A program made the position numbers and the translations under genes. A stretch of 33,355 bases of DNA from Burkholderiales bacterium (GTDB lineage Bacteria > Pseudomonadota > Gammaproteobacteria > Burkholderiales > Burkholderiaceae_C): positions 1 through 33,355 of the forward strand of contig JAGWLR010000035.1 in NCBI GenBank assembly GCA_028864885.1, written 5' to 3'. Below are positions 4,525 to 31,683 of the stretch, one piece after another. A model generated the notes under the pieces. The model was not told the DNA's origin, did no database searches, and saw only the letters and a program-made list of their open reading frames with translations. Position 1 is the first letter of the stretch. Each line of letters begins with the position of its first letter.

Positions 4525-4650
4525 CCGTTCACTCCTAGCTCGGTTTGTTTTGACAATGAAGCAAGACTCTGGCCCACGGCCAAAAGTTCGCTGCACTGCA
4601 ACATAGAAAGCGTACACCGGCTAGCGTGCAAAAAGCCAGAGAACAGCATG

Positions 4651-10514: not shown

Positions 10515-10515
10515 G

Positions 10516-11970: not shown

Positions 11971-11984
11971 GATGTGCACCGTCC

Positions 11985-12968: not shown

Positions 12969-15208
12969 CACAGCCCTCCCCGACCGTTGTCTGCCACGGC
13001 CGTCTGCTGTTCGCGCAGCCGCAGCAGGCGAGCCGCCCCCCAACCCATGGCAACCACCAACACCACCAGCAATGCGATAGGCCAGTAGTTGGGGCGATTC
13101 CATTGTTTGAGGCTGCGCTCGCGGTCTTTCACATCCAGGCGATAGTACTGAGCCTGATCGCGAACCATGATGCTGGGCTTGCCGTTGTGCACCCAATGTT
13201 GATAGGCGCCGGAGGCATAGGGGAAATAGCCGAACGACCAGGGCGCGTCTTCTTGCAGGATGTGGACCATCTTGTCGATGACGGCTTGCTTGGCCGGGCC
13301 ATCGTCCATGAAGCGCAACTGGCTGTAGAGCTTGTCGTACTCGGGGTTCGAGTAGTTGGCCGCGTTCTCGCCATCGTGTTCGGATTTGGCGTTCGGCCCA
13401 TACAGCAGGAAGAGGAAGTTTTCGGCGTCCGGGTAATCGGCGAGCCAGCCCCACGAGAAGATCTGGTGCTTGCCGCGACGCACCTTGTCCTGGAATTGGT
13501 TGTAATCGGTGGCCCGAATTTCGAGCTGGATGCCCAGTTTGGCGAACTGCTTGGTGGTCCAGTCCAAAGTGGCCTTGGCCTCAGGGGTGGCCGGCCGGCC
13601 GTAGTCGTAGTTCAACACCAGGGGCTTGCCTGTTTTGGCGTCTCGACCATCCGGGTAGCCTGCCTCGGCCAACAGCCGCTTGGCATCATCGATGGGCCGA
13701 CGCACGGCTACGCCATTGACCCAGCGGTGCGTCACAGGATTGAGCCCTTCACGGGTGCCATGACGAGAGCCGAACACCCCCGCCGGCAAGGGGCCTTGCG
13801 CCACTTCCCCTGCCGCTTTCGGGAAGATGCGATTGAACTCATCCCAGTCGATGGCGATCGACAGCGCCTGGCGCAGCTTGCGGTTGCGGACCTGCTGTTC
13901 GGGCGTGTCCCCCTTGCCCACCACCGGGTCCAGCCAATTGAACCCCATGTAGCTGATGGACAGATCGACCGTGCGAGCCAGGACGATGCCCTTCTCGGTG
14001 AACTCCTTGTTCACCTTGTCGGAGTCTTCCATCTGGATCTTGTAGGCGTTGCCATAGCTCATCTGATCAAACTCGGGTACGTCCAAGTACCCTTGCCGGA
14101 ACTTGGTGTCTTGCGGCACAGCCTCTTTCTCCATGTTGAAGACAATGGTGTCGACAAACGGAGTTTTCTTGCCACAGTCGGCCAGCAGGCCGTCCGCCTT
14201 GTCCTTGTCGGTGCCTTCACAGGGATAAGGGACGCCTCGATAGTTCGGGTTGCGCTTGAGCACGTGGCGCCGATCCTGAATGGACTCCCACATCATGTAG
14301 GGGCCTGTCCCCACTGGCCAGGTGTTGAGCGACAGACCATTGCCAGCCATGCCGGGTTGGGAATAGAAGGCATCGGCCTCCCAGGGGACCGGGGCCAGGA
14401 ACGACATCGCCATCCAGTACTTCCACTGCGGATACTTGCCTTTGATGCGGATACGCAGGGTGTACTTGTCCAGCGCCTGAGCACCCGGCAGAGGCCACTT
14501 GCGAAAATCCAGAAACGGTTTGTCGATGGCACTGGCGGGCAAGCCGGCGCGCAGTTTTTTGTCTTCCGCACGAATCAACTTGCCGTATTCGGCCAAGCCT
14601 TCAATGTACTCACTGAATACGCCGAACACCGGGGCCGCTGTGCGTGTGGTGGCATGCCGCTTGATGGCATACACATAGTCATCGGCTGTCAACTCCCGGG
14701 TGCCGGTTTGGGCAAATTGCCAGGGCGACCGTTTATCCCCCACCTGATCACGAGTCAGATGGTGATACAGGTAGTGCCCCTGGGCATCCTTGGCAAAGGC
14801 GGGATGGGGGGCAAACAAAATCCCGGGCTTGATCTTGATGGTGTAGATGCTTTCGGCAATCTGCTCAGCCGGGGCATCGGGCGGCAAAGGCTTGCCGTTG
14901 CGGTCGAGGTATTGGGGTTGGACCACGGACTCGGCCGTCTTGGGCACCAGGGTGTAGGGCCGCTTCAGGTAGTGGTAGCCGTACAGGGGCTCGTAGATCT
15001 GGTAGGTGAACGGCGTCTCGTTGCTGCTATAGGACGAGGTGGGATCCAGATACCGCGGGGAGCGCTCGCTGAACGCGGTGAACAGCGTGTTTTCGGCTTC
15101 GGCGCCCTTCGGGTAAGGATTGTTGTTGCAGCCGGCCACCAGTGCCAGCATCCAAACCGACAGCAGCCCCAGACAAAAACGAACCCAGAAATTCAAGTGA
15201 CGTTGCAT
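12968..15208 (-). CDS. Peptide ABC transporter substrate-binding lipoprotein (SBP_bac_5)
   Basis: 746 residues. Lipobox LVAGC places the lipidated cysteine at residue 27. The body is a cluster C/family-5 solute-binding protein (ERSPRYLDPT, YTIKIKPGILFAPHPAFAKD, LNTWPVGTGPYMMWE, RKLRQALSIAIDWDEFNRIF, IFSWGWLADYPDAENFLFLLYG). Such proteins bind oligopeptides or muropeptides in the periplasm. It is longer than DppA/OppA (about 535). Unusually, the C-terminus carries a hydrophobic span (WPIALLVVLVVAMGWGAARLL, about 706-726) and a charged tail, so the protein may be held at the membrane at both ends. It is second in the operon, 45 bp after the LD-carboxypeptidase gene. The substrate is not readable; murein peptide is inferred from context. 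Confidence 0.92.
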   Translation of the reverse strand: MQRHLNFWVRFCLGLLSVWMLALVAGCNNNPYPKGAEAENTLFTAFSERSPRYLDPTSSYSSNETPFTYQIYEPLYGYHYLKRPYTLVPKTAESVVQPQYLDRNGKPLPPDAPAEQIAESIYTIKIKPGILFAPHPAFAKDAQGHYLYHHLTRDQVGDKRSPWQFAQTGTRELTADDYVYAIKRHATTRTAAPVFGVFSEYIEGLAEYGKLIRAEDKKLRAGLPASAIDKPFLDFRKWPLPGAQALDKYTLRIRIKGKYPQWKYWMAMSFLAPVPWEADAFYSQPGMAGNGLSLNTWPVGTGPYMMWESIQDRRHVLKRNPNYRGVPYPCEGTDKDKADGLLADCGKKTPFVDTIVFNMEKEAVPQDTKFRQGYLDVPEFDQMSYGNAYKIQMEDSDKVNKEFTEKGIVLARTVDLSISYMGFNWLDPVVGKGDTPEQQVRNRKLRQALSIAIDWDEFNRIFPKAAGEVAQGPLPAGVFGSRHGTREGLNPVTHRWVNGVAVRRPIDDAKRLLAEAGYPDGRDAKTGKPLVLNYDYGRPATPEAKATLDWTTKQFAKLGIQLEIRATDYNQFQDKVRRGKHQIFSWGWLADYPDAENFLFLLYGPNAKSEHDGENAANYSNPEYDKLYSQLRFMDDGPAKQAVIDKMVHILQEDAPWSFGYFPYASGAYQHWVHNGKPSIMVRDQAQYYRLDVKDRERSLKQWNRPNYWPIALLVVLVVAMGWGAARLLRLREQQTAVADNGRGGL

Positions 15209-15253
15209 GGGGCTATTGTCACCTGCCTGAAAGCGCCTCCTCCCTGGGGAAGA

Positions 15254-16189
15254 TCACCACATGACGAAGGCGTCGCGTCCCTGCACCACGAGATTCACCT
15301 GCCGCCCAATTGGCAGAGACAGCTTCACCGGCACGTGGCCGAACGGCAAGCCAGTCAAGATGGGCACCGAGGTCAAGGAACGCAGGTAAGAGATGACCGT
15401 TTTGAGCGTATAGCCACGATCGAGCGGCGAGCGGCGGTATTCGGTGAAGGCACCCAGCACAATGGCTTTCTGCCGCTCGAGTACGCCGGCCTGATGCATT
15501 TGCAGCAAGGCGCGCTCGATTCGATAGGGATGCTCGTTGACGTCTTCCAGAAACAGAACCCCATTGCGGATGTTCGGAAAGTGGGGGGTGCCAAGCATCG
15601 CCTGGGTGATCGCCAGATTGCCGCCCCACAGGCGTCCGACCACATCCAAGCCATCGAATCCGGTTTCGGTGCGAAACCCGACGGCTTCCAGCTCGCCGGT
15701 CATGGCCTCGACAAAGCAATCCTGGGTGACGTCATCGCCACCGCCAGGGATGTCTTTGCGGCCAAAGTCATCACAGGCCATCGGCCCGGCCCAAAAGCCG
15801 GCTGAGACCCCCTCACCCGGTTTGGCTGGGCCGGTCGCCTTGTGCGCCAATGCCGCCAACTGCAAGGCGGTCACGTCGCTGTAGCCAACCCATCCGGTGC
15901 CATTGTCGACACTGCGCGCCAGCAGCTTGAAGTCGATGCTGTCGAGCAGCCGCATGAGGCCGTAGCCACCACGCGTGGCCAGAGCCACGGCCGGTGAGGC
16001 CTGCGCCACCCGGTGGATGGCGGCCAACCGCGTGGCGTCGTCGCCGGCAAAACGCTGATGCTTGGTCAAGGCAGAAGCATCAACCGAAGGCTCGAAGCCC
16101 AAGGCGGCCAAGCGCTTGGCGGCCTGACGAACCGGTGCCGCAGCGGCCACAATGCCGGCGGGACTGTAAATGATCAATGAACGCGACAC
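15254..16189 (-). CDS. ldcA: LD-carboxypeptidase (muramoyltetrapeptide carboxypeptidase, peptidase S66)
   Basis: 311 residues. It removes the terminal D-Ala from murein tetrapeptides in the cytoplasm during cell-wall recycling. The Ser-Glu-His triad of family S66 is visible: Ser104 in VGYSDVTAL, Glu215 in FLEDVNEH and His285 in PFGHVPVKLSLPIG. The N-terminal TRGGYGLMRLLD segment is also typical. There is no signal peptide, as expected. The start is GTG at 16189 with GAGG 5 nt upstream. As first gene of an operon with a peptide ABC importer it gives a functional hint: imported muropeptides would be trimmed at once. A bulged hairpin (16222-16250) lies just upstream of the gene. Confidence 0.94.
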   Translation of the reverse strand: MSRSLIIYSPAGIVAAAAPVRQAAKRLAALGFEPSVDASALTKHQRFAGDDATRLAAIHRVAQASPAVALATRGGYGLMRLLDSIDFKLLARSVDNGTGWVGYSDVTALQLAALAHKATGPAKPGEGVSAGFWAGPMACDDFGRKDIPGGGDDVTQDCFVEAMTGELEAVGFRTETGFDGLDVVGRLWGGNLAITQAMLGTPHFPNIRNGVLFLEDVNEHPYRIERALLQMHQAGVLERQKAIVLGAFTEYRRSPLDRGYTLKTVISYLRSLTSVPILTGLPFGHVPVKLSLPIGRQVNLVVQGRDAFVMW

Positions 16190-16258
16190 GATGACCTCAC
16201 GCTAAGCTGCCTGATCGCAGCGAACGTCAGTCTACGTGCAAGACACGTTCAAATCACA

Positions 16259-18282: not shown

Positions 18283-19812
18283 TCAAAAAAACTGCATGGC
18301 GCGCTCGGCCATGGCCGTGATCGTCAGGCTGGGGTTGACGCCCACGTTGGCGGGAATCGCCGACGCATCAATGACATACAGACCCGGGTAGCCAAAGACC
18401 TCGTGCCGCTCGTCGATCACGCCGTGCTCAGGCGTCGAGGCCATCACGGCGCCGCCAAGAACATGCGCTGTCACAGACATGTTGCCGATCGACTCGAGCA
18501 AGGTGTTACCTGCAACCCCACCGCTGACTGACGCGTAGGTTTGAATCACGGTTTGCGCCTGTTCCAAATACGCGGGGGGACGCCGGCCCCCTTTGGGCAC
18601 ATGCGATTGCAAAACCCAGCCACCAAGTTTCCATGCGGAACGTCGGTAACTCATCGAGAGCTGGCTGTCGTCCGGCTTCATGGCCAGCAGCACGGTGGTT
18701 CGGTCTGCCCAAGCGCGCCCTGTTCGCATGGAGGCAGTAGACCGGGCGGGATGACTCAAGAACCTCGATACCGACTTGAAAGCCCGCCGCCAGGGAACCG
18801 GATCGCTCACAAAATCGCCTACCTGCCAACGCAGCACACGATGCACGGGCGAGAAGCGGTTTTGGTGAACGTGCAGATCATCCAGATAGAAGTGCGAGGA
18901 GATGGTGGTGCCGTGGCGCAAACCTTGCACCGACGGGGGATGAGTCACCGCAGCGATCGTTTCGCAATTGGTGCGAACGTGTTGGCCCAATGCACCCGAC
19001 AAACGCGGCAAGGTGCGATGGCGGTCTCGACAGGCCATGAGCAACTCAAGCGTGCCCACCACCCCGGCTGACACAATGACCTTGTGAGCACTCAGCGACT
19101 CCTGCGTGCCACGGCGCCCTGGTGCGTGCAGACTCAAACGGTAACCGCCCGATGGAATCGGCGCGATCATGGCCACCCGCCGCTCGCTCAGAATCTTCAC
19201 CCCCAACTGCTGCGCCTGATGCAAATAGTTTTTGTCGAGCGAATTCTTGGCCCCAACCGCACAGCCACTGGTGCAATTGCCGCAAAAGGTGCAACCCGGT
19301 CTTGTCCCGTCCGAATCGCCAAAGTGGATGGCCTGGGGTACGGGGCCAAAGCGCTCGGGTACGCCCAGTTTGCCCGCCGTTTGCTGCAACCAGGTATCTT
19401 GCAGGCCATGGTGGGGATTCACGGTCATGCCCAGCATGTTCTGGGCTGTCCGCAGATGTGGGGCCAGTTCGACACGCCAATCACGTGGCGCCAGGTGCTG
19501 CCAGGCCGGATCCCTATAAAAGCCCTCCTGAGGCTCAAGCAGCACAGCGGCAAAGACGATGCTGCCCCCTCCGACCCCAATGCCTCGCACCAGGCTGACA
19601 TGCCGAAAGAAGTCCTGCGCGAAGAAACCTTTCAGACCCAGACCAGGCTGCCACAAGAAGCGCGTTGGCTGGTGCGCTGCCGCCTGCATCTCCTCGGGTT
19701 GGATCCAACGCCCCTGCTCAATCACGGCCACGCGATGGCCCTTTTGCGCTGCACGCAAAGCCGCGACCGAACCACCAAATCCGCTGCCAATGACCAGAAC
19801 ATCGAAATCCAC
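18283..19812 (-). CDS. GMC-family FAD-dependent oxidoreductase (cholesterol-oxidase-like) with Cys-rich motif
   Basis: 509 residues. FAD loop IGSGFGGSVAA (8-18), a second flavin motif GIGVGGGSIVFAAV (77-90), and the C-terminal GMC signature region VIDASAIPANVGVNPSLTITAMAERAM. The family oxidises alcohols, including sterols and terpenoid or long-chain alcohols. Four cysteines at 174, 177, 180 and 184 (C-x2-C-x2-C-x3-C in CTFCGNCTSGCAVGAKN) form a ferredoxin-like pattern. The start is GTG at 19812 with AGAGGG upstream; there is no signal peptide. It lies 18 bp after the acyl-CoA ligase, so it is probably the last pathway gene of the atu-like operon. A role in the first oxidation of an alcohol substrate is an inference from position. 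Confidence 0.88.
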   Translation of the reverse strand: MDFDVLVIGSGFGGSVAALRAAQKGHRVAVIEQGRWIQPEEMQAAAHQPTRFLWQPGLGLKGFFAQDFFRHVSLVRGIGVGGGSIVFAAVLLEPQEGFYRDPAWQHLAPRDWRVELAPHLRTAQNMLGMTVNPHHGLQDTWLQQTAGKLGVPERFGPVPQAIHFGDSDGTRPGCTFCGNCTSGCAVGAKNSLDKNYLHQAQQLGVKILSERRVAMIAPIPSGGYRLSLHAPGRRGTQESLSAHKVIVSAGVVGTLELLMACRDRHRTLPRLSGALGQHVRTNCETIAAVTHPPSVQGLRHGTTISSHFYLDDLHVHQNRFSPVHRVLRWQVGDFVSDPVPWRRAFKSVSRFLSHPARSTASMRTGRAWADRTTVLLAMKPDDSQLSMSYRRSAWKLGGWVLQSHVPKGGRRPPAYLEQAQTVIQTYASVSGGVAGNTLLESIGNMSVTAHVLGGAVMASTPEHGVIDERHEVFGYPGLYVIDASAIPANVGVNPSLTITAMAERAMQFF

Positions 19813-19830: not shown

Positions 19831-21684
19831 TCAGTCTTGGTACAGGCTGTCGACCACGTCTTTGTAGCGTTCCAACACCACCTTGCGCTTGACCTTCATC
19901 GTCGGCGTCAACTCGCCCGATTCGATCGACAAGGACTTGGGCAGCACGGTGAACTTGCGAATGTTGGCCACACGAGCATGCCGACTGTTGACGTGATCCA
20001 CTCCCTTTTGCAACTCAGCCAACACCGTGGGATGTTGGTGCAGGTTGTCGCCGCTGAGTTGATGCTGCCGTGCGAAGTCAGCGAGCGCATCTGGCATCAA
20101 GGTGAGCATGGCGGTGAGGTAATGGCGTCCGTCGCCGCACACCACTGCGTGCTCTACCAGATGGGTGTTCATCAAATCGGCTTCGATGTTGGCCGGCGAG
20201 ATGTTCTTGCCACCCGAGGTGATCAACAAATCCTTTTTGCGACCGGTGATGTAGAGGTAGCCGTCTTCATCCATGTGCCCCAGGTCACCCGAGGCCAGCC
20301 AGCCATTGATCAAGGCCTCGGCCGTGCCGGCGGGATTGCCTGCGTAGCCTTTGAAGACATGCGGGCCGCGAACGAAAATCTCTCCGTCGTCGGCGATCCG
20401 AATCTCAGCGCCCTCGACGGGGCGCCCCACTGAGCCTAGGCGGGTTGCGCCAGGAACGCTCAAGGTCGTCGCACCGCAGCTTTCAGACTGGCCGTACACC
20501 TCGCGGATGACCATGTCCAGCCCCGTGAAGAACTTGAGCATTTCGGCTGAAATGGGGGCTGCACCGGTGGCCAGCATATGAGCCTGATCCAGACCAATGG
20601 CCGCCTTGACCTTTCGCAGAATCAAGGTATCCGCTACCGTCTTCTTCAAACTGGACCAGGCGCCCGGCATCTCGCCGCTGAGCTTGGCATCATGCCAATC
20701 ACGCGCGGTACCCAGCGCCCACTTTGCCAGGTTCGCTTTGGGGCCTGTGGCGGATTCGAGTTTGGCCTCGATTGCGGCATGCATCTTTTCCCAGACGCGG
20801 GGCACGCCGAAGAAAATCGTGGGCCGCACCTCTTTCAGATGCTCGCTGAGTTCTTCCAGAGAGCGAGCGAAATACACAGGGAATCCGGCGAGCGCCGGAT
20901 TGTGAACACTGATCATCTGCTCGGCCACGTGGGCCAAGGGCAGATAGGAAATGACGCGTTGATCGGCATTGGCTCCGAGCGATCCACACAGTGATTGGGC
21001 GCTCCAGGACAAATTGGCATGGGTCAGCTCCACCGCTTTCGATGGCCCCGTGGTGCCCGATGTGTAGATGTAGGTGCCCGGATGCTCTGGCTGGATGCCC
21101 TGCAAGCGTTCGTCAACTCTCTTTTGTAAAGAGTGATCGCCCATCGCAAGGAAGTCATCCCAACTGATGGTGTCGCCAACCGAGCGTTTGCCGTCCTTCA
21201 TGCGGACCACGTGCTTGAGATGGGTCAGCCCCGGACGCAGCGCTGCCAGCTTGGCATACCGATCTTCGTTTTCGATCAGCAACACCGGGCTTTGCGAGTG
21301 ATTGAGGATGTACTCGACCTCCTGGGTCGAGCTGGTCCAGTAGATCCCGGCGGGCACGGCCCCGATCACCATGGCTGCCATGTCCATGACTGACCACTCT
21401 GGGCGATTGAAGCCCAGGATGCAAACGATCTGACCCGGCTGCACGCCCAGTGCCACCAAGGCACGGGCAGCCGTCAACACCTGATCGGCGTAGTCGCCCC
21501 AAGTGGTGGGCTGCCAGCCAGATTCCGTGCGAACGAAATAGCCCGGACGATCGGCATACCGCGCTGCGGTGCGCAAAAAGCGGGCTGGGGTCGACATGAA
21601 CCCCGCCGCTGACGCAGGCGTTTCATTGAAACGCTGCCGGTCTTGCTCAGGCGGCAAGGCCTTCAACAACGCTGGTTGCGCCAT
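19831..21684 (-). CDS. AMP-dependent acyl-CoA synthetase (long-chain/bubblegum type, AtuH-like position)
   Basis: 617 residues. ANL-superfamily enzyme that adenylates a carboxylic acid and makes its CoA thioester. P-loop YTSGTTGPSK (207-216), EVYGQSESCG (A5), GEIFVRGPHVFKGY, ASGDLGHMDEDGYLYITGRKKDLLITSGGKNISP (A7-A8) and PTMKVKRK (A10 with the catalytic Lys) are all present. Length and motifs match the ACSBG/FadD15 group that acts on long-chain or branched acids. Start ATG at 21684 lies inside the end of the BKACE gene (38-nt overlap), with GGAGAC upstream. In the atu cluster of Pseudomonas an acyl-CoA synthetase (AtuH) is the last gene, so citronellate/geranate-like acids are plausible substrates here. 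Confidence 0.92.
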   Translation of the reverse strand: MAQPALLKALPPEQDRQRFNETPASAAGFMSTPARFLRTAARYADRPGYFVRTESGWQPTTWGDYADQVLTAARALVALGVQPGQIVCILGFNRPEWSVMDMAAMVIGAVPAGIYWTSSTQEVEYILNHSQSPVLLIENEDRYAKLAALRPGLTHLKHVVRMKDGKRSVGDTISWDDFLAMGDHSLQKRVDERLQGIQPEHPGTYIYTSGTTGPSKAVELTHANLSWSAQSLCGSLGANADQRVISYLPLAHVAEQMISVHNPALAGFPVYFARSLEELSEHLKEVRPTIFFGVPRVWEKMHAAIEAKLESATGPKANLAKWALGTARDWHDAKLSGEMPGAWSSLKKTVADTLILRKVKAAIGLDQAHMLATGAAPISAEMLKFFTGLDMVIREVYGQSESCGATTLSVPGATRLGSVGRPVEGAEIRIADDGEIFVRGPHVFKGYAGNPAGTAEALINGWLASGDLGHMDEDGYLYITGRKKDLLITSGGKNISPANIEADLMNTHLVEHAVVCGDGRHYLTAMLTLMPDALADFARQHQLSGDNLHQHPTVLAELQKGVDHVNSRHARVANIRKFTVLPKSLSIESGELTPTMKVKRKVVLERYKDVVDSLYQD

Positions 21685-22567
21685 GCTTGTCTCCTGCTTG
21701 TAGACCGAGGATCTCGCGAGCTTCTGCGGGAGAAGCGATCTCGCGACCGGCGTTGCGGGCGCACTGAGCCAGCGCTTCGATCAGTTGGCCGTTGCCGCTG
21801 GTGCGCTCGCCATTGGGCAGGTAGAAGGTGTCTTCCACCCCAGTGCGCAGCATGCCGCCCAAATCAGCGGTAGCTTGATGCACTGGCCAGATTTCCTGGC
21901 GGCCAATCAGCGTGGTTTGCCACACTGCACCGGGTTCACGGTACTTGATGAGCAGCTTGAGCAAATCGGCATCGACTGGCATGCCGGAGGCGACCCCCAT
22001 CACGAAGTTGTACTCGAGGTGATCGGTCATGCCGTTCTTTTTGTACATACCGACCGACCGAACGATGCCGACGTCAAAGCATTCGAACTCCGGGTTGGTG
22101 CCAACTTCCTTCATGACATCGAGCATGGCCTTGACCTTGTCGACCTGGTTGTCGAACAGCATGGGCGGCCACGCCCAGTTGCCATCGTCCTTGATCTTCA
22201 GATAGTTGAGGCTGCCGGCATTGCAGGCCGCGATTTCAGGGCGAACGCGACGAATGCAGGCAACAGGCCCAGAGATGTCTTTGCCGATCACGCCGGTGGT
22301 GAGGTTGATGATCACACCGGGGCAGGCTTCGCGGATCGCGATGTCAACCTCAGCCGCAACCTGGGGATCCCAGCTGGGCAAATGCCCCATGCCGTCGATC
22401 TGCTGGCGCAGGTGAACGTGCATGATCGAGGCGCCAGCGTCATACGCCTCGCGAGCCGCCGCGGCCATTTCCTTGGGCGTAACCGGGACGGGGTGCTGCT
22501 TGGGATTCGTCAGCACGCCGGTCAGGGCGCACGTCAAGATCGCCTTTTCTTTCAGGTTGTTGCTCAT
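21647..22567 (-). CDS. DUF849 beta-keto acid cleavage enzyme (BKACE)
   Basis: 306 residues. The family (prototype Kce, 3-keto-5-aminohexanoate cleavage enzyme) reacts a beta-keto acid with acetyl-CoA to give acetoacetate and a new acyl-CoA. Metal ligands are recognisable: His50 and His52 in IMHVHLR, and Glu245 in RTGVEDTFYLPNG. Arg54 of the motif is kept, but the residue after it is Gln where Asp is usual. The C-terminus GREIASPAEAREILGL is the family hallmark. Start ATG at 22567 shares its A with the TGA of the carboxylase alpha gene; AAGGAG lies 5 nt upstream (an ATG 3 nt earlier is possible). Its place inside an atu-like operon, where a lyase would be expected, is unusual; the substrate is unknown. 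Confidence 0.92.
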   Translation of the reverse strand: MSNNLKEKAILTCALTGVLTNPKQHPVPVTPKEMAAAAREAYDAGASIMHVHLRQQIDGMGHLPSWDPQVAAEVDIAIREACPGVIINLTTGVIGKDISGPVACIRRVRPEIAACNAGSLNYLKIKDDGNWAWPPMLFDNQVDKVKAMLDVMKEVGTNPEFECFDVGIVRSVGMYKKNGMTDHLEYNFVMGVASGMPVDADLLKLLIKYREPGAVWQTTLIGRQEIWPVHQATADLGGMLRTGVEDTFYLPNGERTSGNGQLIEALAQCARNAGREIASPAEAREILGLQAGDKHGATSVVEGLAA

Positions 22568-24561
22568 CATGACTCCTTCGCTTCCGTTTCGATCAGTTCC
22601 AACTCGACGATCAAGGCTTGTGCTTGCACCTGATCGCCCGGCGAGCCGGACACTGCTTTCACCACGCCCGGCGCTTGCGCACAGAGCCACATTTCCATCT
22701 TCATCGCTTCCACACTGACCAACTGCTGACCAGCTTCGACGCGATCGCCCTCCTTCACCAGAACCTGCGCGATCACCCCTGCAACAGGCGACACCGCCCG
22801 ACGTGGATCGTTGGCCTGGTCCAGTGAAGGCCAAGGCGACACTTCATTGAACACAAAGGTGGCGGCGTTCATCACCAGATGCAGGTGTTCCCCAGCCCAA
22901 ACAGCCAGCACCTTCTTTCGCACGCCATCCAGCTCGTAACGCAGCGTGCCGCCGGTCTGGTGATCTTCGTGATTCAGGATGCGCAAGAGGCTCACTGCCG
23001 CATCGCCCTTGAGCTCAACTCGAACCGAGCCGTCCGCGGCAGGCGTCACACGGGTGGCGTGAATCTCACCGTCCACACACAACTTCAAATCGTAGGCAGC
23101 CACGCTGGCCGAGCGAACTTGATCTGCAGAGCCCGCTCGGCGCGTCGCAAATGCGGCTGCGGCAACCAGAATCGCCTCACGCGGCGCAACGGGGCGCTGC
23201 ATGATCGGCTGAGACTCTTCGAGCCACTGATCGATCAGCGTGGTGGTCATCTGCCCCTTGCGGAAGGCTTCGTGGTCGACCAGATCACGCAGGAATCGGG
23301 CATTGTTCTTCAAGCCCAACAAAGGCGCGTCATCCAGCACCGCCATCAGGCGGCGGATCGCATCATCCCGGTCGCGGCCATGCACGATGAGCTTGGCCAC
23401 CATGGCGTCGTAGAATGGGGTGACCTCTCCGCCCTCACGGATGCCATCGTCGATGCGCACGCCTTCGTACAAAGCCCGCTCTGGACGCCACCACACGATG
23501 GGCCCCGTTTGTGGCGCAAAGCCACTGTAGGGATCCTCGGCATACAAGCGCGCCTCGATGGCGTGGCCACTGAGGGTGATGTCCGATTGCTTGACAGGCA
23601 AGGGTTGCCCTGCTGCCACGCGCAACTGCCATTCGACCAGATCGAATCCCGAGATCAGCTCGGTCACAGGGTGCTCCACCTGCAACCGGGTGTTCATTTC
23701 CAGGAAGTAGTAGTTGAGCTTGTCGTCAACGATGAACTCGATCGTGCCCGCGCCTCGGTACCCCACCGCCAAAGCCGCGGCCACGGCATCCTTGCCCATG
23801 CTGGCGCGCATCTCAGGGCTCACCACGGGGGACGGCGCTTCTTCGATCACCTTTTGCCGACGCCGCTGGGCGGTGCAATCGCGCTCACCAACATAGACCG
23901 CGTTGCCGTGCGCATCCGCAAACACCTGGATTTCGATGTGGCGCCCATTGAGAATCAGGCGCTCTAGCATCAAGGTGCCATCACCAAAGGCGCTTTGCGC
24001 TTCACGTCTGGCGCTGACAATGGCCTGCGCCAGATCGGCATGCTTATGCACCAGGCGCATGCCGCGGCCGCCGCCACCACTCACGGCCTTCACCAGCAAG
24101 GGGTAGCCCAAACGCTCGGCCTCGGCCATCAGTCGCTCGTCGCTTTGATCTTCGCCCAAGTAGCCAGGCGCGGTCGGCACCTTGGCCTCGATCATGCGCG
24201 CCTTGGCCCCTGCCTTGTCGCCCATGACACGAATCGCCTCGGGCGGCGGGCCGATAAAAATCAAGCCTGCGTCTGCACAGGCTTGCGCAAAGCCGGCGTT
24301 TTCCGACAGGAAGCCGTAACCCGGGTGAATGGCATTCGCCCCGGTCTGCTTGGCCACCTCGATGAGGCGGTCTGCGCGCAAATACGACTCGGACGCTGGC
24401 GCCGGGCCAATACAAGCAGCTTCGTCTGCCAGATCGACATGGGGCGCACGAGCGTCGGCCTCGGAATAGACGGCAACGGTTCGATACCCAAGCTTGCGAG
24501 CGGTGCGAATGACACGGCAAGCGATCTCGCCGCGGTTGGCGATCAGAATCTTCTTGATCAC
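22567..24561 (-). CDS. Acyl-CoA carboxylase alpha subunit (biotin carboxylase + biotinyl domain), AtuF/LiuD-like
   Basis: 664 residues. Biotin carboxylase N-domain (KKILIANRGEIACRVIRTA), ATP-grasp core with the glycine-rich loop AVSGGGGRGMRLV and FLEMNTRLQVEHPVTE, and a C-terminal biotinyl domain with VEAMKME; Lys621 would carry biotin. It carboxylates biotin with bicarbonate and ATP, and the beta subunit passes the carboxyl to the acyl-CoA. Length and layout suit methylcrotonyl-CoA or geranyl-CoA carboxylase alpha chains. I chose GTG at 24561, with CAGGAG 8 nt upstream and 2 bp after the hydratase stop, because the family begins exactly here; the open frame upstream lies in the hydratase gene. 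In the atu cluster this is the atuF position. Confidence 0.93.
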   Translation of the reverse strand: MIKKILIANRGEIACRVIRTARKLGYRTVAVYSEADARAPHVDLADEAACIGPAPASESYLRADRLIEVAKQTGANAIHPGYGFLSENAGFAQACADAGLIFIGPPPEAIRVMGDKAGAKARMIEAKVPTAPGYLGEDQSDERLMAEAERLGYPLLVKAVSGGGGRGMRLVHKHADLAQAIVSARREAQSAFGDGTLMLERLILNGRHIEIQVFADAHGNAVYVGERDCTAQRRRQKVIEEAPSPVVSPEMRASMGKDAVAAALAVGYRGAGTIEFIVDDKLNYYFLEMNTRLQVEHPVTELISGFDLVEWQLRVAAGQPLPVKQSDITLSGHAIEARLYAEDPYSGFAPQTGPIVWWRPERALYEGVRIDDGIREGGEVTPFYDAMVAKLIVHGRDRDDAIRRLMAVLDDAPLLGLKNNARFLRDLVDHEAFRKGQMTTTLIDQWLEESQPIMQRPVAPREAILVAAAAFATRRAGSADQVRSASVAAYDLKLCVDGEIHATRVTPAADGSVRVELKGDAAVSLLRILNHEDHQTGGTLRYELDGVRKKVLAVWAGEHLHLVMNAATFVFNEVSPWPSLDQANDPRRAVSPVAGVIAQVLVKEGDRVEAGQQLVSVEAMKMEMWLCAQAPGVVKAVSGSPGDQVQAQALIVELELIETEAKES

Positions 24562-24563
24562 GT

Positions 24564-25379
24564 TCAGGACTCCTGGGGGACCCAGTTGGGCTTGCGCTTT
24601 TGCATGAAGGCGGCTGTGCCCTCCTGCCCTTCGGCGCTTTGAATGGCTTGAGAGAACAACTGAGCTGCGTCGTCGATCAGCCCTTGAGGGGCCTCCAGCC
24701 GAGCCCGAGCGAGCAGCTTCTTGGTGGTGGCAATGGCCCCCGGGGCGCAAGCCAGCATCCGATCAATCACTTGTTTGATGGCCGTGTTCAGTGATTCGGC
24801 GTCCGCATGCACTTCGTGCACCAAGCGAATGGCCAAGGCTTCCGCCGCCTCGACCTTGCCACCCGTCACCGCCAGCCGCTTGGCCTCGGCATACCCGATT
24901 CGTTCAACCAGGAAGGGGGCAATCTGTGCGGGCACCACACCCAGAGACGTTTCTGGCAAACGGAAGACCACGTTGTTCATGGCCAGGGTCACATCCGACA
25001 CACAGGCCAGGCCGAAGCCACCGCCCATGACCGAGCCTTCCAGCACCGTGATGATGGGCAAGGGCGAGCGTGCATAAGCCAGACACAGGCGACCGAATTT
25101 GGCATTGACCTCGGCCATGGCGTCTTTGTCGCCAGCAGCCATCTTCATGCGGGCTTGAGCCATGTCGCCGATGTCACCACCGGCACAAAAATGGCCACCC
25201 TGCCCGCGAACCACCACCACACGCACCGACGCGTCGGCTTCCGCGCCGCCCAGTACATCAGTCAGCTCGCCGACCATGTCCAGCGACATGGCATTGCGAA
25301 CCTCCGGGCGATTCAGCGTGATGGTCAACACCCCTGCGGTGTGATCCAGCAGCAGAGTTTTGAGCTGCGTCTGGGCCAT
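24564..25379 (-). CDS. Enoyl-CoA hydratase/isomerase family protein, AtuE/LiuC-like
   Basis: 271 residues, a crotonase. Oxyanion-hole segments HFCAGGDIGDM and GSVMGGGFGLACVSD are clear. The usual first acidic catalytic residue of GGGxEL is Gly here (GGGFGL), while the second Glu (RLPETSLGVVP) is kept. The expected role, from the atu/liu gene order, is hydration of a 3-substituted glutaconyl-CoA made by the carboxylase. I prefer ATG at 25379 (MAQTQLKTLLL); a GTG at 25385 overlapping the dehydrogenase stop is the alternative and has GAAGG closer. The gene is sandwiched with almost no spacing between the dehydrogenase and carboxylase alpha genes, a sign of a single transcript. Confidence 0.91.
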   Translation of the reverse strand: MAQTQLKTLLLDHTAGVLTITLNRPEVRNAMSLDMVGELTDVLGGAEADASVRVVVVRGQGGHFCAGGDIGDMAQARMKMAAGDKDAMAEVNAKFGRLCLAYARSPLPIITVLEGSVMGGGFGLACVSDVTLAMNNVVFRLPETSLGVVPAQIAPFLVERIGYAEAKRLAVTGGKVEAAEALAIRLVHEVHADAESLNTAIKQVIDRMLACAPGAIATTKKLLARARLEAPQGLIDDAAQLFSQAIQSAEGQEGTAAFMQKRKPNWVPQES

Positions 25380-25381
25380 GA

Positions 25382-26536
25382 TCACTTCGCCTTCTTGGGC
25401 AGCGTGCCCTCAAGCTTGCAGATGATGCCCAGCATGATTTCGTCGGCACCACCACCGATCGAAACCAGTCGGCCATCACGGTAGGCACGAGAAATCGGGT
25501 TGTCCCAGGTGAAGCCCATGCCCCCCCAGTACTGCAGGCAGGCATCGGCCGTTTCACGGATCAGGCGGCCGCACTTGAGCTTGGCCATCGAGGCCAATCG
25601 GGTCACGTCCTTGCCACCCACGTACTCTTCCACGGCGCGATAGACCAGCGAGCGCAGCGATTCCACCTCAGTGCGCAACTCAGCCATGCGGAAGTGGATG
25701 ACCTGGTTGTTGATCAAAGGCTGACCGAAGGTGTGACGCTCGCGGGTGTACTCAATGGTCTGATCAATCAGGCGATCGAGCATCTTCAAGGAATTGGCTG
25801 CCCCATACAGGCGCTCTTCCTGGAACTGCAGCATCTGCATCATGAAGCCCATGCCTTCGGATCCGATCAAATTGCGCTTGGGCACCCGAACGTTGTCGAA
25901 AAACAGCTGCGCGGTGTCTGACGAGTTCATCCCGATCTTCTTGATTTTTTGGCGCGTGATGCCCTTGGCATCCATCGGCACGATGATCAGAGACTTGTTC
26001 GAATGAACCGGGCCATCGGATGTGTTGGCCAGCAAGCAGCACCAGTCGGCTTGCATGCCGTTGGTGATCCACATCTTCGAGCCGTTGATCACGTAGTCAT
26101 CGCCATCGCTGCGAGCAGAGGTCTTCAGGGCCGCCACGTCCGAACCGCCCCCCACTTCGCTGACGCCAATGCAGCCAACCATGTCGCCCGCAATCGCCGG
26201 AGCCAGATACTCTTTGCGCAGAGCATCCGAGCCAAAACGAGCCAGGGCCGGTGTGCACATGTCTGTCTGTACCCCGATGGCCATGGGCACGCCGCCACAA
26301 TCTGCGGCACCCAGCGCTTCCGACACCACCATGGAGTACGAAAAATCAAGCCCCAAGCCGCCGTATTCGGTGGGGTACTTCACGCCCAGCAGCCCCAGGT
26401 TGGCCATCTTCTTGAAGACCTCGTGCGCCGGGAAAATCTCGGCAGCCTCCCACTCGTTGATGTAAGGGTTGAGTTCGTTCTCAACAAAGCGCTTGACGGT
26501 TTCAGCAAGAGCCAGATGTTCAGGGGTGAATTGCAT
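25382..26536 (-). CDS. Acyl-CoA dehydrogenase, citronellyl-CoA dehydrogenase (AtuD)-like
   Basis: 384 residues, a complete ACAD: N-terminal helices, FAD/substrate beta domain with GCIGVSEVGGGSDVAALKT and KMWITNG, C-terminal helices with RHTFGQPL and the YWGGMGF segment. No Glu follows YWGGMGF, so the catalytic base should be the Glu in helix G (QFQEERL region), as in isovaleryl-CoA dehydrogenase. Stretches such as VPMAIGVQTDMCTPALARFG and RLASMAKLKCGRL recall AtuD to me (memory, not a search). It should introduce the 2,3-double bond of a branched acyl-CoA and pass electrons to ETF, hence ETF-QO. Start ATG at 26536, AGGAG 7 nt upstream; 41 bp after the carboxylase beta gene. Confidence 0.92.
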   Translation of the reverse strand: MQFTPEHLALAETVKRFVENELNPYINEWEAAEIFPAHEVFKKMANLGLLGVKYPTEYGGLGLDFSYSMVVSEALGAADCGGVPMAIGVQTDMCTPALARFGSDALRKEYLAPAIAGDMVGCIGVSEVGGGSDVAALKTSARSDGDDYVINGSKMWITNGMQADWCCLLANTSDGPVHSNKSLIIVPMDAKGITRQKIKKIGMNSSDTAQLFFDNVRVPKRNLIGSEGMGFMMQMLQFQEERLYGAANSLKMLDRLIDQTIEYTRERHTFGQPLINNQVIHFRMAELRTEVESLRSLVYRAVEEYVGGKDVTRLASMAKLKCGRLIRETADACLQYWGGMGFTWDNPISRAYRDGRLVSIGGGADEIMLGIICKLEGTLPKKAK

Positions 26537-26577
26537 GGTTGTCTCCTCGATCGAGATTCGTGAATGGCGTGCCGCGT

Positions 26578-28188
26578 TTACATGCGGGCCACGCCGAAAG
26601 CGTTGGGGTGTAGCGTGCGTTGATCGGCTTCGACAGCCATGTCCAGACACATGGCCAGCACGCGGCGGGTGTCTCTGGGGTCGATGATTCCGTCATCCCA
26701 CAGTCGAGCGGTGCCAAACAGCACGTTCGATTCGGCGTCGAGGCGCTTGCGGATCTCGGCCGACATGCCTTCCAGCATGGCGTCATTCACCGGCATCCCT
26801 GCGCGTTCCATCTTGCCGCGGGTCACGATTTCCATCACCTTGGCCGCCTGGGCGCCACCCATCACGGCGGTGCGAGCCGAAGGCCAGGAGAAAATGAAGC
26901 GCGGATCGAACCCGCGGCCGCACATCCCATAGTTGCCTGCACCAAACGAACCATTGAGCACCACGGTGAACTTGGGCACACGCGCATTGGCCACGGCCTG
27001 GATCATCTTGGACCCATGTTTGATGGCGCCGCCCTTTTCCGCAGCGGACCCCACCATGTAGCCTGTCGTGTTTTGCAGGAAGACCAAGGGCGTCCCGCTT
27101 TGATCGCACAACTGGATGAACTGCGCAGCCTTGACCGAACCATTCGGCTGAATGGGCCCGTTGTTGCCCAGGATGCCGACCAGATGACCATTGATGCGAG
27201 CGTGCCCGCACAGCGTTTCAGGCGCGTAGTTGGCCTTGAACTCCAAAAAGTCAGAACCATCGACGATGCGGGCGATCACCTCGCGGGTGTCAAACGGCTC
27301 ACGATCATCCGCAGACACACAGCCCAGCAGCTCTTCTTGCGAATAAAGCGGCGCCCGCGCGTCGCGCTGACCTTGCGTTGATTCCCACTGCAGTTTGTCG
27401 ATCACCTCGCGCGCCATGGCAATCGCGTGCGCATCGTCCTCACACAAATACTCACCCAGGCCGGTCGTCTGGGCGTGCATCTCGGCACCCCCGAGTTCCT
27501 CGTCGGTGGTGTCCTCGCCGATGGCGGCTTTCACCAAGGGGGGGCCGGCCAGATAGATCGACGAACGATCACGCACCAGGATCACGTAGTCAGACAAGCC
27601 GGGCAAATAGGCCCCGCCCGCTGTCGATGAACCGTGAACCACAGCGATCTGCGGCAAGCCTGCAGCAGACAACCGGGCCTGGTTCGCGAAGCTGCGCCCG
27701 CCCTCCACGAAGATCTCGCTTTGGTACATCAGGTTTGCGCCGCCGCTCTCAACCAGATACACCAGCGGCAGCTTGTTTTCTCGCGCGATTTCCTGAGCAC
27801 GCAATCCTTTACGCAAGCCCATGGGCGACACCGTGCCGCCTTTGAGGGAGCTGTCGCTGGCGCTGATCATCACGCGCTTACCAGCCACCACCCCGATGCC
27901 GACGATCGAGCCGCCCCCGAGCACCGAGCGCTTGCCATCGTCATCGTGCATGCCCAGGCCCGCCAGGGTGCTCAGCTCTAGAAACGGCGAATCACGATCC
28001 AGCAAACGTGCCACGCGCTCGCGCGGCAGCAACTGACCGCGCTTTTCAAACTTGTCGCGCTTGCTGGCAGACTCATCCCGAACTTGCTGTTCGAGCGAGC
28101 GCACCTGCGCCAGGCGCTCCGACATCTTGTCCACATTGGCGCGGAACGAATCGGACTTGGTATTCAATGAAGAACGCAATACCGGCAT
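26578..28188 (-). CDS. Acyl-CoA carboxylase beta subunit (carboxyltransferase), AtuC-like
   Basis: 536 residues. The two crotonase-like halves each keep their oxyanion-hole loop: HGSSTAGGAYLPGLSD (185-200) and GSFGAGNYGMCGRGFDP (413-429); LVFLQNTTGYMVG binds the acyl-CoA/biotin pair. It carboxylates the gamma-methyl of a 3-methyl-2-enoyl-CoA in methylcrotonyl- and geranyl-CoA carboxylases. The stretch GGRSFANQARLSAAG (164-177) lacks the bulky aromatic seen in the GRIFYNQA stretch of methylcrotonyl-CoA carboxylases, and GGAEMHAQ replaces the GGADLHC of those enzymes. Both lean to a geranyl-CoA-type enzyme with a larger pocket. Start ATG at 28188 with AAGGA 8 nt upstream, 18 bp after the SDR gene. 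Confidence 0.92.
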   Translation of the reverse strand: MPVLRSSLNTKSDSFRANVDKMSERLAQVRSLEQQVRDESASKRDKFEKRGQLLPRERVARLLDRDSPFLELSTLAGLGMHDDDGKRSVLGGGSIVGIGVVAGKRVMISASDSSLKGGTVSPMGLRKGLRAQEIARENKLPLVYLVESGGANLMYQSEIFVEGGRSFANQARLSAAGLPQIAVVHGSSTAGGAYLPGLSDYVILVRDRSSIYLAGPPLVKAAIGEDTTDEELGGAEMHAQTTGLGEYLCEDDAHAIAMAREVIDKLQWESTQGQRDARAPLYSQEELLGCVSADDREPFDTREVIARIVDGSDFLEFKANYAPETLCGHARINGHLVGILGNNGPIQPNGSVKAAQFIQLCDQSGTPLVFLQNTTGYMVGSAAEKGGAIKHGSKMIQAVANARVPKFTVVLNGSFGAGNYGMCGRGFDPRFIFSWPSARTAVMGGAQAAKVMEIVTRGKMERAGMPVNDAMLEGMSAEIRKRLDAESNVLFGTARLWDDGIIDPRDTRRVLAMCLDMAVEADQRTLHPNAFGVARM

Positions 28189-28206
28189 GAAAATGATCCT
28201 TCAGTG

Positions 28207-29088
28207 TCAGCCTTGCAGCACCTTGGGCAAGGCGGCGCGGTGGAAACCTTCAAAAGCGGGTGATGGCGGGTGATCCATGCTCGGGAACACCGCGCTGTGC
28301 AGCGGAGACCCTCCATCAATGGCCAGGGTCACCCCGGTAATGAACGCCGCCCCCGGACTGAGCAAGAAGCAGATGGCGGAACTCACTTCGGCCTCCAAAC
28401 CCAGGCGACGCATCGGCACCTTGTTCTTGAGGTCATGGATGATCGGCGCCATCGCCGGGCCATACGAATCCATGCCAGAAGAGGCAATCCAACCCGGGGC
28501 CACCGCATTCACACGAACGCCGGCCACAGCCCATTCGAAGGCAGCGGTCTTGGTGAGGTTGACCATCCCCGCCCGAGCTGCACCTGAGTGCCCCATACCC
28601 GGCATGCCATTCCACATGTCAGCGGTCATGTTCACCATGGCACCGCCATGCTTTTGCATCGACTGGTTGAACACTTCGCGGGCCATCAAAAAGCCGCCAG
28701 TGAGGTTATTGGCGACCACGGCATCAAAGCCGCGCTTCGAGATGGCCTGCAAGGGTGAGGGGAACTGCCCTCCAGCGTTATTGACCAGCCCATGGATGCG
28801 CCCATGCTTGGCCACCATCGCCGCCACCGCAGCCTTGACCTGATCCTCGTCGCGGATATCAAAGGCAGCGGTATCGACCTTGCCGCCGTCTTCGGTGATT
28901 TCAGCAGCGACCTTGTCGAGCTTTTCTTGCGTACGCCCAGTCAGGATCACCGTCGCCCCCAACGAGGACAACTCATGGGCCACGCAACGGCCGATGCCGC
29001 TGCCCCCTCCCGTGACGACATGCACTTGCCCTGCAAACAAGCCTGGCGCCAAAACGCTGCTGTACTTCGATTGACCCGAATTGCTCAT
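28207..29088 (-). CDS. SDR-fold protein with altered active site, AtuB-like / dienoyl-CoA reductase-like
   Basis: 293 residues, first gene of the operon. Cofactor loop TGGGSGIG (26-33) and NNAGG (103-107) are intact, so NAD(P) should bind; TGRTQEKL after beta 2 suggests NADP(H). The Tyr-x-x-x-Lys active site is absent: the segment reads GHSGAARAGM, with Ser168 at the Tyr position and Arg172 at the Lys position. This recalls 2,4-dienoyl-CoA reductases, which also lack the Tyr, but those keep Lys. An additional C-terminal tail (about residues 258-293) goes beyond the standard SDR end. The start ATG at 29088 lies about 38 nt after a predicted transcription start. In the Pseudomonas atu cluster the equivalent position is AtuB, also an SDR of uncertain role. 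Confidence 0.9.
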   Translation of the reverse strand: MSNSGQSKYSSVLAPGLFAGQVHVVTGGGSGIGRCVAHELSSLGATVILTGRTQEKLDKVAAEITEDGGKVDTAAFDIRDEDQVKAAVAAMVAKHGRIHGLVNNAGGQFPSPLQAISKRGFDAVVANNLTGGFLMAREVFNQSMQKHGGAMVNMTADMWNGMPGMGHSGAARAGMVNLTKTAAFEWAVAGVRVNAVAPGWIASSGMDSYGPAMAPIIHDLKNKVPMRRLGLEAEVSSAICFLLSPGAAFITGVTLAIDGGSPLHSAVFPSMDHPPSPAFEGFHRAALPKVLQG

Positions 29089-29132
29089 AGCTCAACCGAC
29101 CCGAACGGGTCGCATCATTGATTCGATGAGCT

Positions 29133-29162
29133 ACTGTAGGATTCGTTAACGTTAACGTCAAC
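29133..29162 (-). promoter_or_regulatory. Promoter of the atu-like operon with MerR/LiuR-type operator
   Basis: On the minus strand, -35 TTGACG (29161-29156), a 17-bp spacer and -10 TACAGT (29138-29133). The -35 and spacer are made of three tandem hexamers TTGACG-TTAACG-TTAACG. On either strand, 29144-29157 is a perfect 14-bp palindrome. A palindrome between -35 and -10 is the standard place for MerR-family control, and the sequence recalls LiuR boxes. Confidence 0.7.
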
Positions 29163-29264
29163 CAAATTCCTCTTAGGTTAAACACTTATACAATACGGCA
29201 ACCTGATCTTCTACGCTCGGCGAAACCGCCCTGAGCGAGCGGTTTCAAGGAACACAAGGTTGAG

Positions 29265-29783
29265 ATGAAAATGAACCAGATGCAGCACGCAACGCTGGAC
29301 GCCATCGATCCAGACACGATGGACGACGACTCTGACAACTGGGCTGACGAAATGACCGCCAGCGCCAGCGCGCGCTTGAAAAACAGCGACGAGTTGATTG
29401 GGATTGCCGAGATGTGCGATGCGTTCCAGGTGTCCCCACGCACCCTGCGCTTTTACGAAGAAAAAGGGTTGCTCACCCCCCGGCGCATCAATGGCACACG
29501 GGTCTACTCGCGACAAGACCGCGCCCGCCTCGCCCGCATCCTGCGCGCCAAGGCACTCGGCACCCCCCTGTCAGAGATCAAAAATTACCTCGACATGTAC
29601 GGCCAACATGGTGAGGGTCGCATTCAGCAATTGATCTACGCCATCGAAAAAACCGATGCCGCGATCAAGGAACTCGAAGCCAAACGCGCGCAGATCGACG
29701 CGTCACTGGCCGAAATGCGCCTGATCAACGCCACCAGCCGCAAAGCCCTTGCAAAGAAGCGGGGTGAGGACTTCCAAGACTGA
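29265..29783 (+). CDS. MerR-family transcriptional regulator, LiuR-like
   Basis: 172 residues. A 40-residue acidic N-terminal tail (DPDTMDDDSDNWADE) precedes a MerR winged helix-turn-helix (about 44-112: LIGIAEMCDAFQVSPRTLRFYEEKGLLTP, then RRINGTRVYSRQDRARLARILRAKALG). A coiled dimerisation helix follows (about 118-160). No cysteines suited to metal sensing are seen in the C-terminal part, so an organic effector, probably an acyl-CoA, is expected. LiuR controls branched-chain amino-acid and related acyl-CoA catabolism in proteobacteria. Divergent from the atu-like operon, with the palindromic operator between them, so it very probably regulates that operon and itself. AAGG lies 5 nt before the ATG. 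Confidence 0.9.
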   Translation: MKMNQMQHATLDAIDPDTMDDDSDNWADEMTASASARLKNSDELIGIAEMCDAFQVSPRTLRFYEEKGLLTPRRINGTRVYSRQDRARLARILRAKALGTPLSEIKNYLDMYGQHGEGRIQQLIYAIEKTDAAIKELEAKRAQIDASLAEMRLINATSRKALAKKRGEDFQD

Positions 29784-31590: not shown

Positions 31591-31683
31591 TGGCGGAGAC
31601 GGAGGGATTCGAACCCTCGATGCAGCTCATCACCGCATACTCCCTTAGCAGGGGAGCACCTTCGGCCTCTCGGTCACGTCTCC
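31591..31683 (-). tRNA. tRNA-Ser(GCU)
   Basis: 93 nt on the minus strand including an encoded CCA. Acceptor stem GGAGACG / CGTCTCC, anticodon arm CTCCC-CTGCTAA-GGGAG with anticodon GCT, a long variable arm typical of serine tRNA, and T-arm GAGGGTTCGAATCCCTC. It reads AGC and AGU codons. It is flanked by a promoter 14 bases upstream and a terminator. Confidence 0.97.

Follow-up and report, generated by a model that had tools for sequence, protein, structure and literature searches.

A geranyl-CoA-type carboxylase operon with a beta-keto acid cleavage enzyme in a Burkholderiales genome: a possible variant of the Atu pathway

Results

Gene content of the operon

The stretch of DNA analyzed here (the window; contig JAGWLR010000035.1 of a Burkholderiales bacterium, C37 in this analysis, 33,355 bases) carries an operon that resembles the Pseudomonas atu cluster of the acyclic terpene pathway and that includes a gene for a beta-keto acid cleavage enzyme (BKACE). 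L, G, and C numbers denote loci, genomes, and contigs of this analysis, G000 being the genome of the window (3.54 Mb, listed as 99.99% complete). On the minus strand, genes follow one another for an AtuB-like short-chain dehydrogenase (SDR; positions 28207 to 29088; PF13561/PF00106), which is 62% identical to the SDR at the atuB position of Marinobacter locus L080; an AtuC-like acyl-CoA carboxylase beta subunit of geranyl-CoA type by PDB match, selector residue, and tree (26578 to 28188; PF01039); an AtuD-like acyl-CoA dehydrogenase (ACAD; 25382 to 26536, with a conserved ATG start at 26536; PF00441/PF02771); an AtuE-like enoyl-CoA hydratase (ECH; 24564 to 25385; PF00378); an AtuF-like carboxylase alpha subunit (22567 to 24567, start approximate; PF02786, PF00289, PF02785, and PF00364) with biotin carboxylase and biotinyl domains and an AMKM biotin site; BKACE (21647 to 22570, with an ATG at 22570; PF05853, E = 1.2e-80); and an AMP-forming acyl-CoA ligase of long-chain type with an AtuH-like role (19831 to 21684; PF00501 and PF23562). 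A MerR-family regulator gene (29265 to 29783, plus strand; PF13411/PF00376) is divergent from this series, and between it and the SDR gene lies a palindromic candidate operator, TTAACGTTAACGTCAA (29146 to 29161).

Profile matches placed all genes named in the initial annotation where it had put them and in clear families, and its reading of their order as atuB-C-D-E-F was borne out by comparison with L080. As it had also stated, atuA is missing (0 PF07287 matches in G000), BKACE occupies the atuG place, between the alpha subunit and the ligase, and a divergent MerR-type gene stands beside the cluster in place of the TetR-type AtuR. Its title, which had BKACE in place of the lyase, does not hold as worded: the atuG place is not a lyase place.

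Eighteen base pairs beyond the ligase gene, on the same strand and outside the span annotated initially, lies a gene for a GMC oxidoreductase (18283 to 19812), which is probably the last gene of the operon. The protein resembles cholesterol oxidase and does not reach the NCBIfam cut-off for that assignment (NF058674, 379 bits versus 850 bits). Among 80 related loci, the best 80 of at least 570 relatives in a scan of genome contigs, a relative of this gene follows BKACE in L030 only. The oxidoreductase of the window might oxidize a terpenoid alcohol. By the beta subunit, the closest kin among the matches listed are Aquabacterium records (up to 86% identical).

The carboxylase and its partner enzymes

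The beta subunit matched the geranyl-CoA carboxylase (GCC) beta structure 5ikl best (718 bits, versus 542 bits for the methylcrotonyl-CoA carboxylase [MCC] structure 3u9r), and in alignment it is 60.5% identical to Pseudomonas GCC beta, the figure for MCC beta being 49.7%. GCC is reported to have a Gly where MCC has a Phe, and MCC to have a 3-residue insertion before that Phe (PMC4673880; this and the other papers cited by PMC number are drawn on in excerpt). The Gly was present and the insertion absent in the window beta and in 80/80 related loci, in an alignment whose gap was displaced by one residue from its published position, and in 23/23 further loci, in a second alignment that sets Gly opposite the MCC Phe. 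In this second alignment, the other beta of the genome (L002) carries the Phe and the insertion typical of MCC. A tree of 71 rows grouped the eight MCC rows in a clade of their own (100/100 support), with the window beta outside it. Judged by sequence, the carboxylase of the window is of geranyl-CoA type and not of methylcrotonyl-CoA type.

The partner enzymes agree with this assignment. The ACAD shares 71% identity with its counterpart at the atuD position of L080 and 32% with the genome's own isovaleryl-CoA dehydrogenase (IVD), whose best PDB matches are isovaleryl-CoA dehydrogenases, and the second best PDB match of the ECH is 4zu2, a putative isohexenylglutaconyl-CoA hydratase (1.9e-75). 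The initial description of the cluster as atu-type rather than liu-type is thus upheld by the tree, the gene order, and an ACAD unlike IVD; beta and ACAD do not fall with MCC and IVD, as they would in a leucine cluster. The IVD gene belongs to a liu locus (L088) on contig C49, together with an alpha-like frame and a gene for 3-hydroxy-3-methylglutaryl-CoA (HMG-CoA) lyase. Since this separate locus exists, leucine is probably served there and not by the window operon.

The BKACE protein

BKACE scored far above its Pfam cut-off and passed no NCBIfam equivalog cut-off (180.6 bits versus 382 for Kce). Its predicted structure (pLDDT 85, pTM 0.87) is closest in fold to 3lot, Kce (2y7f), and a Paracoccus BKACE (9hnf); the fold search, in which identities to solved BKACE members were 25 to 31%, mainly confirmed the family. 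Residues H50, H52, R241, and E245 were invariant in 34/34 sequences; by analogy with Kce, H50, H52, and E245 are presumably the metal ligands and R241 the active-site Arg. The subfamily has invariant features of its own, among them N88 and W131-A132-W133-P134-P135, and an insertion relative to Kce and 3no5 around LKxKxDGxWAWPP, at or beside which model residues 119 to 121 and 134 to 138 have pLDDT values under 50. Among the groups into which BKACE enzymes have been divided, one takes hydrophobic substrates (PMC4922564, Table 7). The second BKACE of the genome is encoded on C192.

Conservation of the carboxylase-BKACE pairing

Gene neighborhoods were compared in the 80 related loci, in a family sample of 120 genomes, and in a phylum sample of 396 genomes. 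Counted at at least 60% identity and located after the carboxylase, BKACE was present in 53/80 related loci; in 48 of the 80, the sequence extends at least 7 kb beyond beta, and 38 of these have it. In 48/52 loci, at most 59 bp lay between the alpha match and the BKACE match. A BKACE orthologue (E at most 1e-60) occurred in 19/120 family genomes, with a GCC-like beta within 8.1 kb in 18 of the 19; in the 19th (G103), the two lie on different contigs. In the phylum sample, 18/396 genomes had an orthologue, and a GCC-like beta was close by in 17 (11 of 12 fetched loci and, by coordinates, G475, G510, G275, G000, G082, and G047). The samples overlap: ten of the 18 phylum genomes belong to one genus and two to a second one, three recur in the family sample, and part of the 80 loci comes from genomes inside the two samples. 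The recurrence of BKACE after the carboxylase in the related loci, and its closeness to alpha there, place the gene order beyond chance. As to the initial suggestion that the combination is undescribed, we found no paper joining BKACE with a geranyl-CoA-type carboxylase in the literature searched, which mostly did not cover subscription journals; the combination is also widespread and not peculiar to this genome.

The pairing was kept across several gene orders. Next to the window type (SDR-beta-ACAD-ECH-alpha-BKACE), we observed BKACE-SDR-beta-ACAD-ECH-alpha-SDR (L119), BKACE-beta-alpha (L122 to L125, L129, and L130), the same with a ligase between BKACE and beta (L126), ECH-alpha-beta-ligase-BKACE with a divergent ACAD (L127 and L128), and beta-alpha-ECH-ECH-ACAD-GST-BKACE on a named plasmid of Haematobacter massiliensis. 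Of the 80 loci, many of which are incomplete, 52 encode the SDR (at least 55% identity across most of the protein) and 5 the ligase type of the window (at least 45%); neither gene belongs to the constant core.

AtuA and BKACE

PF07287, the family of the textbook lyase AtuA, was found in 63/120 family genomes. Around 52 GCC-like betas, defined by at least 550 bits to the window beta (a threshold set by this analysis) and counted after AtuA rows under 100 bits had been dropped, BKACE lay within 10 kb in 18 and AtuA within 40 kb in 17 (within 10 kb in 10); both were present in 0. The hypergeometric chance of no overlap over all 52 was 1e-4, the rows being related. Among 46 genomes behind loci or the phylum sample, 45 of which have BKACE, AtuA was detected in 8 (7 of the 45), in two of them as a weak partial match. 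Its distance from the BKACE cluster was about 65 kb in G159 and more than 0.5 Mb in G336 and G429, and it lay on another contig in G275 and G283; AtuA of the BKACE genomes G132 and G135 was not placed relative to BKACE. The most telling case is G412 (L119), where the beta belongs to the 5ikl clade, the order is atuB-C-D-E-F-G, and BKACE comes first, at the atuA place; no PF07287 protein was found in this genome, and its HMG-CoA lyase lies beside its MCC.

As a separate observation, AtuA in G159 adjoins an MCC-like beta/alpha pair (L152; C66, 135788 to 141154) in a genome without HMG-CoA lyase, and it may serve a leucine-type pathway there.

Location of HMG-CoA lyase

The only HMG-CoA lyase of the window's genome is that of L088. 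Of 50 genomes behind related loci, 44 had a relative of the enzyme (E of 1e-30 or better), which is 44/48 of those with BKACE in the locus; of the two other loci, L004 has a contig that ends before the BKACE position and L059 has a thiolase there. A PF00682 search of 30 genomes detected no HMG-CoA lyase in G173, G227, G159, G160, G167, and G169. The 16 PF00682 matches of these six genomes were 12 citramalate or 2-isopropylmalate synthases, 3 pyruvate carboxylases, and 1 histidine kinase frame (in G167, below the cut-off). G173 and G227, two genomes of one genus listed as 100% complete with 0 contamination, have one citramalate synthase and one 2-isopropylmalate synthase each as their sole PF00682 proteins and keep an IVD-MCC beta-MCC alpha series (L145 and L146). 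An MCC-clade beta without HMG-CoA lyase was likewise found in G159, G167, and G169, and a different lyase may exist in such MCC-bearing genomes.

Directly after MCC alpha in L145 (11868 to 12503) is a gene for a 211-amino-acid protein, with a frame of the same length at the matching place of L146. The search for a replacement lyase at this place yielded no candidate that we retained: the 211-amino-acid protein is without a Pfam family, and the next protein is ketopantoate-reductase-like.

Regulation

A divergent MerR relative was located upstream of beta in 43/80 related loci; among the 67 loci whose upstream sequence spans at least 3 kb, the count was 40. The motif TTNACGTTNACGTNAA, with at most 1 mismatch, occurred 35 to 140 bp before the first recognized gene in 47/75 scannable loci. 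The background in the same loci, with their 1500-bp upstream windows excluded, was 0.007 per 1500 bp (6 matches in 1.25 million positions). Many of the motif-bearing loci are close kin, with Phyllobacteriaceae and Sneathiellaceae included. The palindrome at 29146 to 29161 is the only exact match in the genome of the window. We rejected it as the operator of a wider regulon: there was no second exact site, and the 1-mismatch pattern gave 1 forward and 2 reverse matches versus 3 forward and 4 reverse for a reversed control.

The initial annotation had pointed to a different regulator. The gene is indeed MerR and not AtuR type, which is an established kind for such chemistry and no surprise, because LiuR, a member of the MerR family, regulates the utilization of branched-chain amino acids in many Proteobacteria (PMC5343134) and the gny cluster is cited for MerR-family control of isoprenoid degradation (PMC5045206).

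Other genes of the window

A 3-oxoacid CoA-transferase pair (3170 to 3814 and 3817 to 4617) and an electron-transfer flavoprotein-ubiquinone oxidoreductase (6307 to 7992) are encoded on the same contig as the operon and would suit the use of acetoacetate and the acceptance of electrons from the ACAD, respectively. Further along lie oligopeptide-type ABC transporter genes with an LD-carboxypeptidase (8637 to 16189), which may form a cluster for recycling peptidoglycan or taking up peptides, and a tRNA-Ser (GCT) gene (31591 to 31683) adjoining an aspartate kinase gene.

Discussion

HMG-CoA lyase converts 3-hydroxy-3-methylglutaryl-CoA to acetyl-CoA and the free 3-oxo acid acetoacetate. In the BKACE reaction, acetyl-CoA reacts with a free 3-oxo acid, and acetoacetate and a new acyl-CoA are formed. 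If C3 bears a long alkyl group, what the lyase releases is exactly what BKACE consumes, so that the pair would yield an acyl-CoA and acetoacetate without a thiolase or a CoA-transferase. We infer, with a probability of roughly 0.58, that the operon degrades 3-methyl-branched, isoprenoid-like acids through an HMG-CoA-lyase-type step followed by a BKACE exchange to acetoacetate and a shortened acyl-CoA. The acids would be of citronellate or geranate type, or perhaps longer. The ligase would form the CoA ester, the ACAD would oxidize it to the 2,3-enoyl-CoA, the GCC-type alpha/beta carboxylase would carboxylate the 3-methyl group, and the hydratase would add water to give a 3-hydroxy-3-alkylglutaryl-CoA. 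The lyase of the liu locus, elsewhere in the genome, would then release acetyl-CoA and a free 3-oxo acid by an HMG-CoA-lyase-type retro-aldol cleavage, and from these two BKACE would form acetoacetate and a shortened acyl-CoA, which could enter beta-oxidation directly. BKACE would thus take the place of the AtuA route, in which acetate is released and a thiolase follows. The palindrome in the divergent promoter region would be the site at which MerR controls the operon. Because BKACE chemistry needs a 3-oxo acid and acetyl-CoA, action of BKACE after a lyase, and not instead of it, is the simplest reading. Of the variant pathway with a different final cleavage that had been suggested initially, the different chemistry is likely to stand, whereas BKACE more simply follows the genome's own lyase than replaces it. 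The operon is ordinary by its parts and a variant Atu pathway by its composition, consistent in itself, with a cleavage step that is possibly new.

Several observations weigh against this proposal. No relative of HMG-CoA lyase was detected in any of the 80 related loci (0/80; tblastn E 1e-8), and 6/50 genomes (those behind L004, L035, L055, L056, L074, and L059) were without one at E 1e-30; a lyase step in trans is therefore not universal. Of the 44 relatives found, 35 show at least 62% identity; the other 9, which are not named one by one, show 36 to 52%. The substitutions and insertion of BKACE differ from the two solved members compared, and its substrate could therefore be unusual. BKACE was not found in 10 of the 48 loci with at least 7 kb after beta (L050, L059, L065, L067, L072, L075, L077, L078, L080, and L082), 5 of the 19 family BKACE rows have 1 or 2 TGA codons inside the matched stretch, and G283 has no carboxylase within about 9 kb of BKACE, its GCC-like beta being on another contig. 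A Nitratireductor locus (L059) has a thiolase directly after alpha (14912 to 16258), with no BKACE seen, and a Mesorhizobium metagenome-assembled genome (L055) has a 78% identical relative of this thiolase after BKACE and ligase (18520 to 19788). BKACE is thus not the sole solution; as L055 has both, the thiolase is ruled out as a clean swap for BKACE. The Gly was checked in the window beta and 12 fetched betas of the 52, the others being GCC-like by score. Finally, the exclusivity of AtuA and BKACE is real as a count but partly phylogenetic, and it is weak when clade B is taken by itself (BKACE beside 4 of 35 betas; chance of 0 overlap, 0.058).

The 80 loci without a linked lyase would also suit BKACE acting alone, converting 3-hydroxy-3-alkylglutaryl-CoA to acyl-CoA and acetoacetate by retro-aldol cleavage and then acyl exchange in one site, with the products still bound. 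We consider this unlikely. The net reaction would require no external acetyl-CoA, and the clusters of G173 and G227 (L127 and L128) hold ligase, ACAD, alpha, beta, ECH, and BKACE together in genomes without AtuA or HMG-CoA lyase, as do, with regard to the lyase, G159, G160, and G167, for which a completeness figure was not available. However, the two complete genomes are of one genus and keep IVD and MCC without HMG-CoA lyase, so that another lyase may serve both pathways; G159 has AtuA beside another carboxylase; and a relative of HMG-CoA lyase is present in 44/48 genomes with the cluster. BKACE enzymes are not known to perform a retro-aldol cleavage on a hydroxyacyl-CoA, which counts against a single-enzyme reaction. 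It is similarly doubtful that cleavage of 3-hydroxy-3-alkylglutaryl-CoA by this BKACE subfamily replaces both the thiolase and the HMG-CoA-type lyase or AtuA in a widespread pathway. We set aside a plain replacement of the lyase by BKACE as the leading explanation since the genome has an HMG-CoA lyase, and kept it as an alternative owing to G173 and G227.

Somewhat less probable again is another class of substrate handled by the same carboxylase logic, such as a sterol side chain, a prenyl-quinone tail, or another branched acid. The likeness of the last gene to cholesterol oxidase, the long-chain type of the ligase, and the large pocket of GCC (PMC4673880) would agree with it, but the score of the GMC protein is far under the cut-off for cholesterol oxidase, and only 1/80 loci has a relative of it next to the operon. 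On the sterol side-chain route, which the GMC gene had suggested, neither "carboxylase" nor "BKACE" occurs in the main text of a stigmasterol paper (PMC11061730). BKACE enzymes are promiscuous (PMC4922564), and that of the operon could catalyze an unrelated reaction and be present for shared regulation only; this is very unlikely, as the pairing is kept across different gene orders and two phyla and excludes AtuA. A second leucine or isovalerate pathway with the carboxylase as an MCC, for which the homology of MCC and GCC and the MerR-type regulation of liu in many Proteobacteria (PMC5343134) could be cited, was rejected as the least probable of all on the GCC Gly, the absent MCC insertion, the separate clade, the separate liu locus, and an ACAD that is not IVD.

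The accompaniment of the key carboxylase by BKACE thus suggests an undescribed way of finishing isoprenoid-like acid degradation, with the lyase followed by the BKACE exchange as the preferred sequence. For the step after hydration in the acyclic terpene pathway, AtuA is named in PMC4847356 and LiuE in PMC4097962; BKACE as an AtuA-excluding partner of the geranyl-CoA-type carboxylase would be a concrete third route. It would indicate a probable function for "3-keto-5-aminohexanoate cleavage" annotations beside such carboxylases and offer a new class of BKACE substrates. If BKACE truly needs no separate lyase, the BKACE fold would have a new C-C bond cleaving activity.

Comparison with known systems

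The Pseudomonas atuABCDEFGH cluster shares with the window the order SDR-beta-ACAD-ECH-alpha-(x)-ligase, a GCC-type carboxylase, and AtuD- and AtuE-like enzymes. The window differs in having no AtuA in the genome, BKACE and not the AtuG SDR between alpha and ligase, a MerR regulator, and an extra GMC oxidoreductase. L080 (Marinobacter aromaticivorans) keeps the atu order: an SDR occupies the atuG place, and next comes a 607-amino-acid frame that, by place and size, we took as the ligase. With the liu/gny cluster (IVD, MCC, hydratase, HMG-CoA lyase, and MerR), the window shares the chain of chemistry and the regulator family, and it differs in gene order, in its GCC-type beta, and in the absence of a linked HMG-CoA lyase, the genome having its own liu locus besides. 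The window BKACE shares the fold, the metal ligands, and the active-site Arg of the BKACE/Kce family (PF05853), whereas it scores below the NCBIfam equivalog cut-offs, is 25 to 31% identical to solved members, and carries the LKxKxDGxWAWPP insertion. The linalool cluster of Thauera linaloolentis (atuC, F, E, A, H, lis, and geoAB) likewise represents a betaproteobacterial GCC route in a rearranged cluster; unlike the window, it has AtuA, and no BKACE is entered in its gene table as excerpted (PMC4847356).

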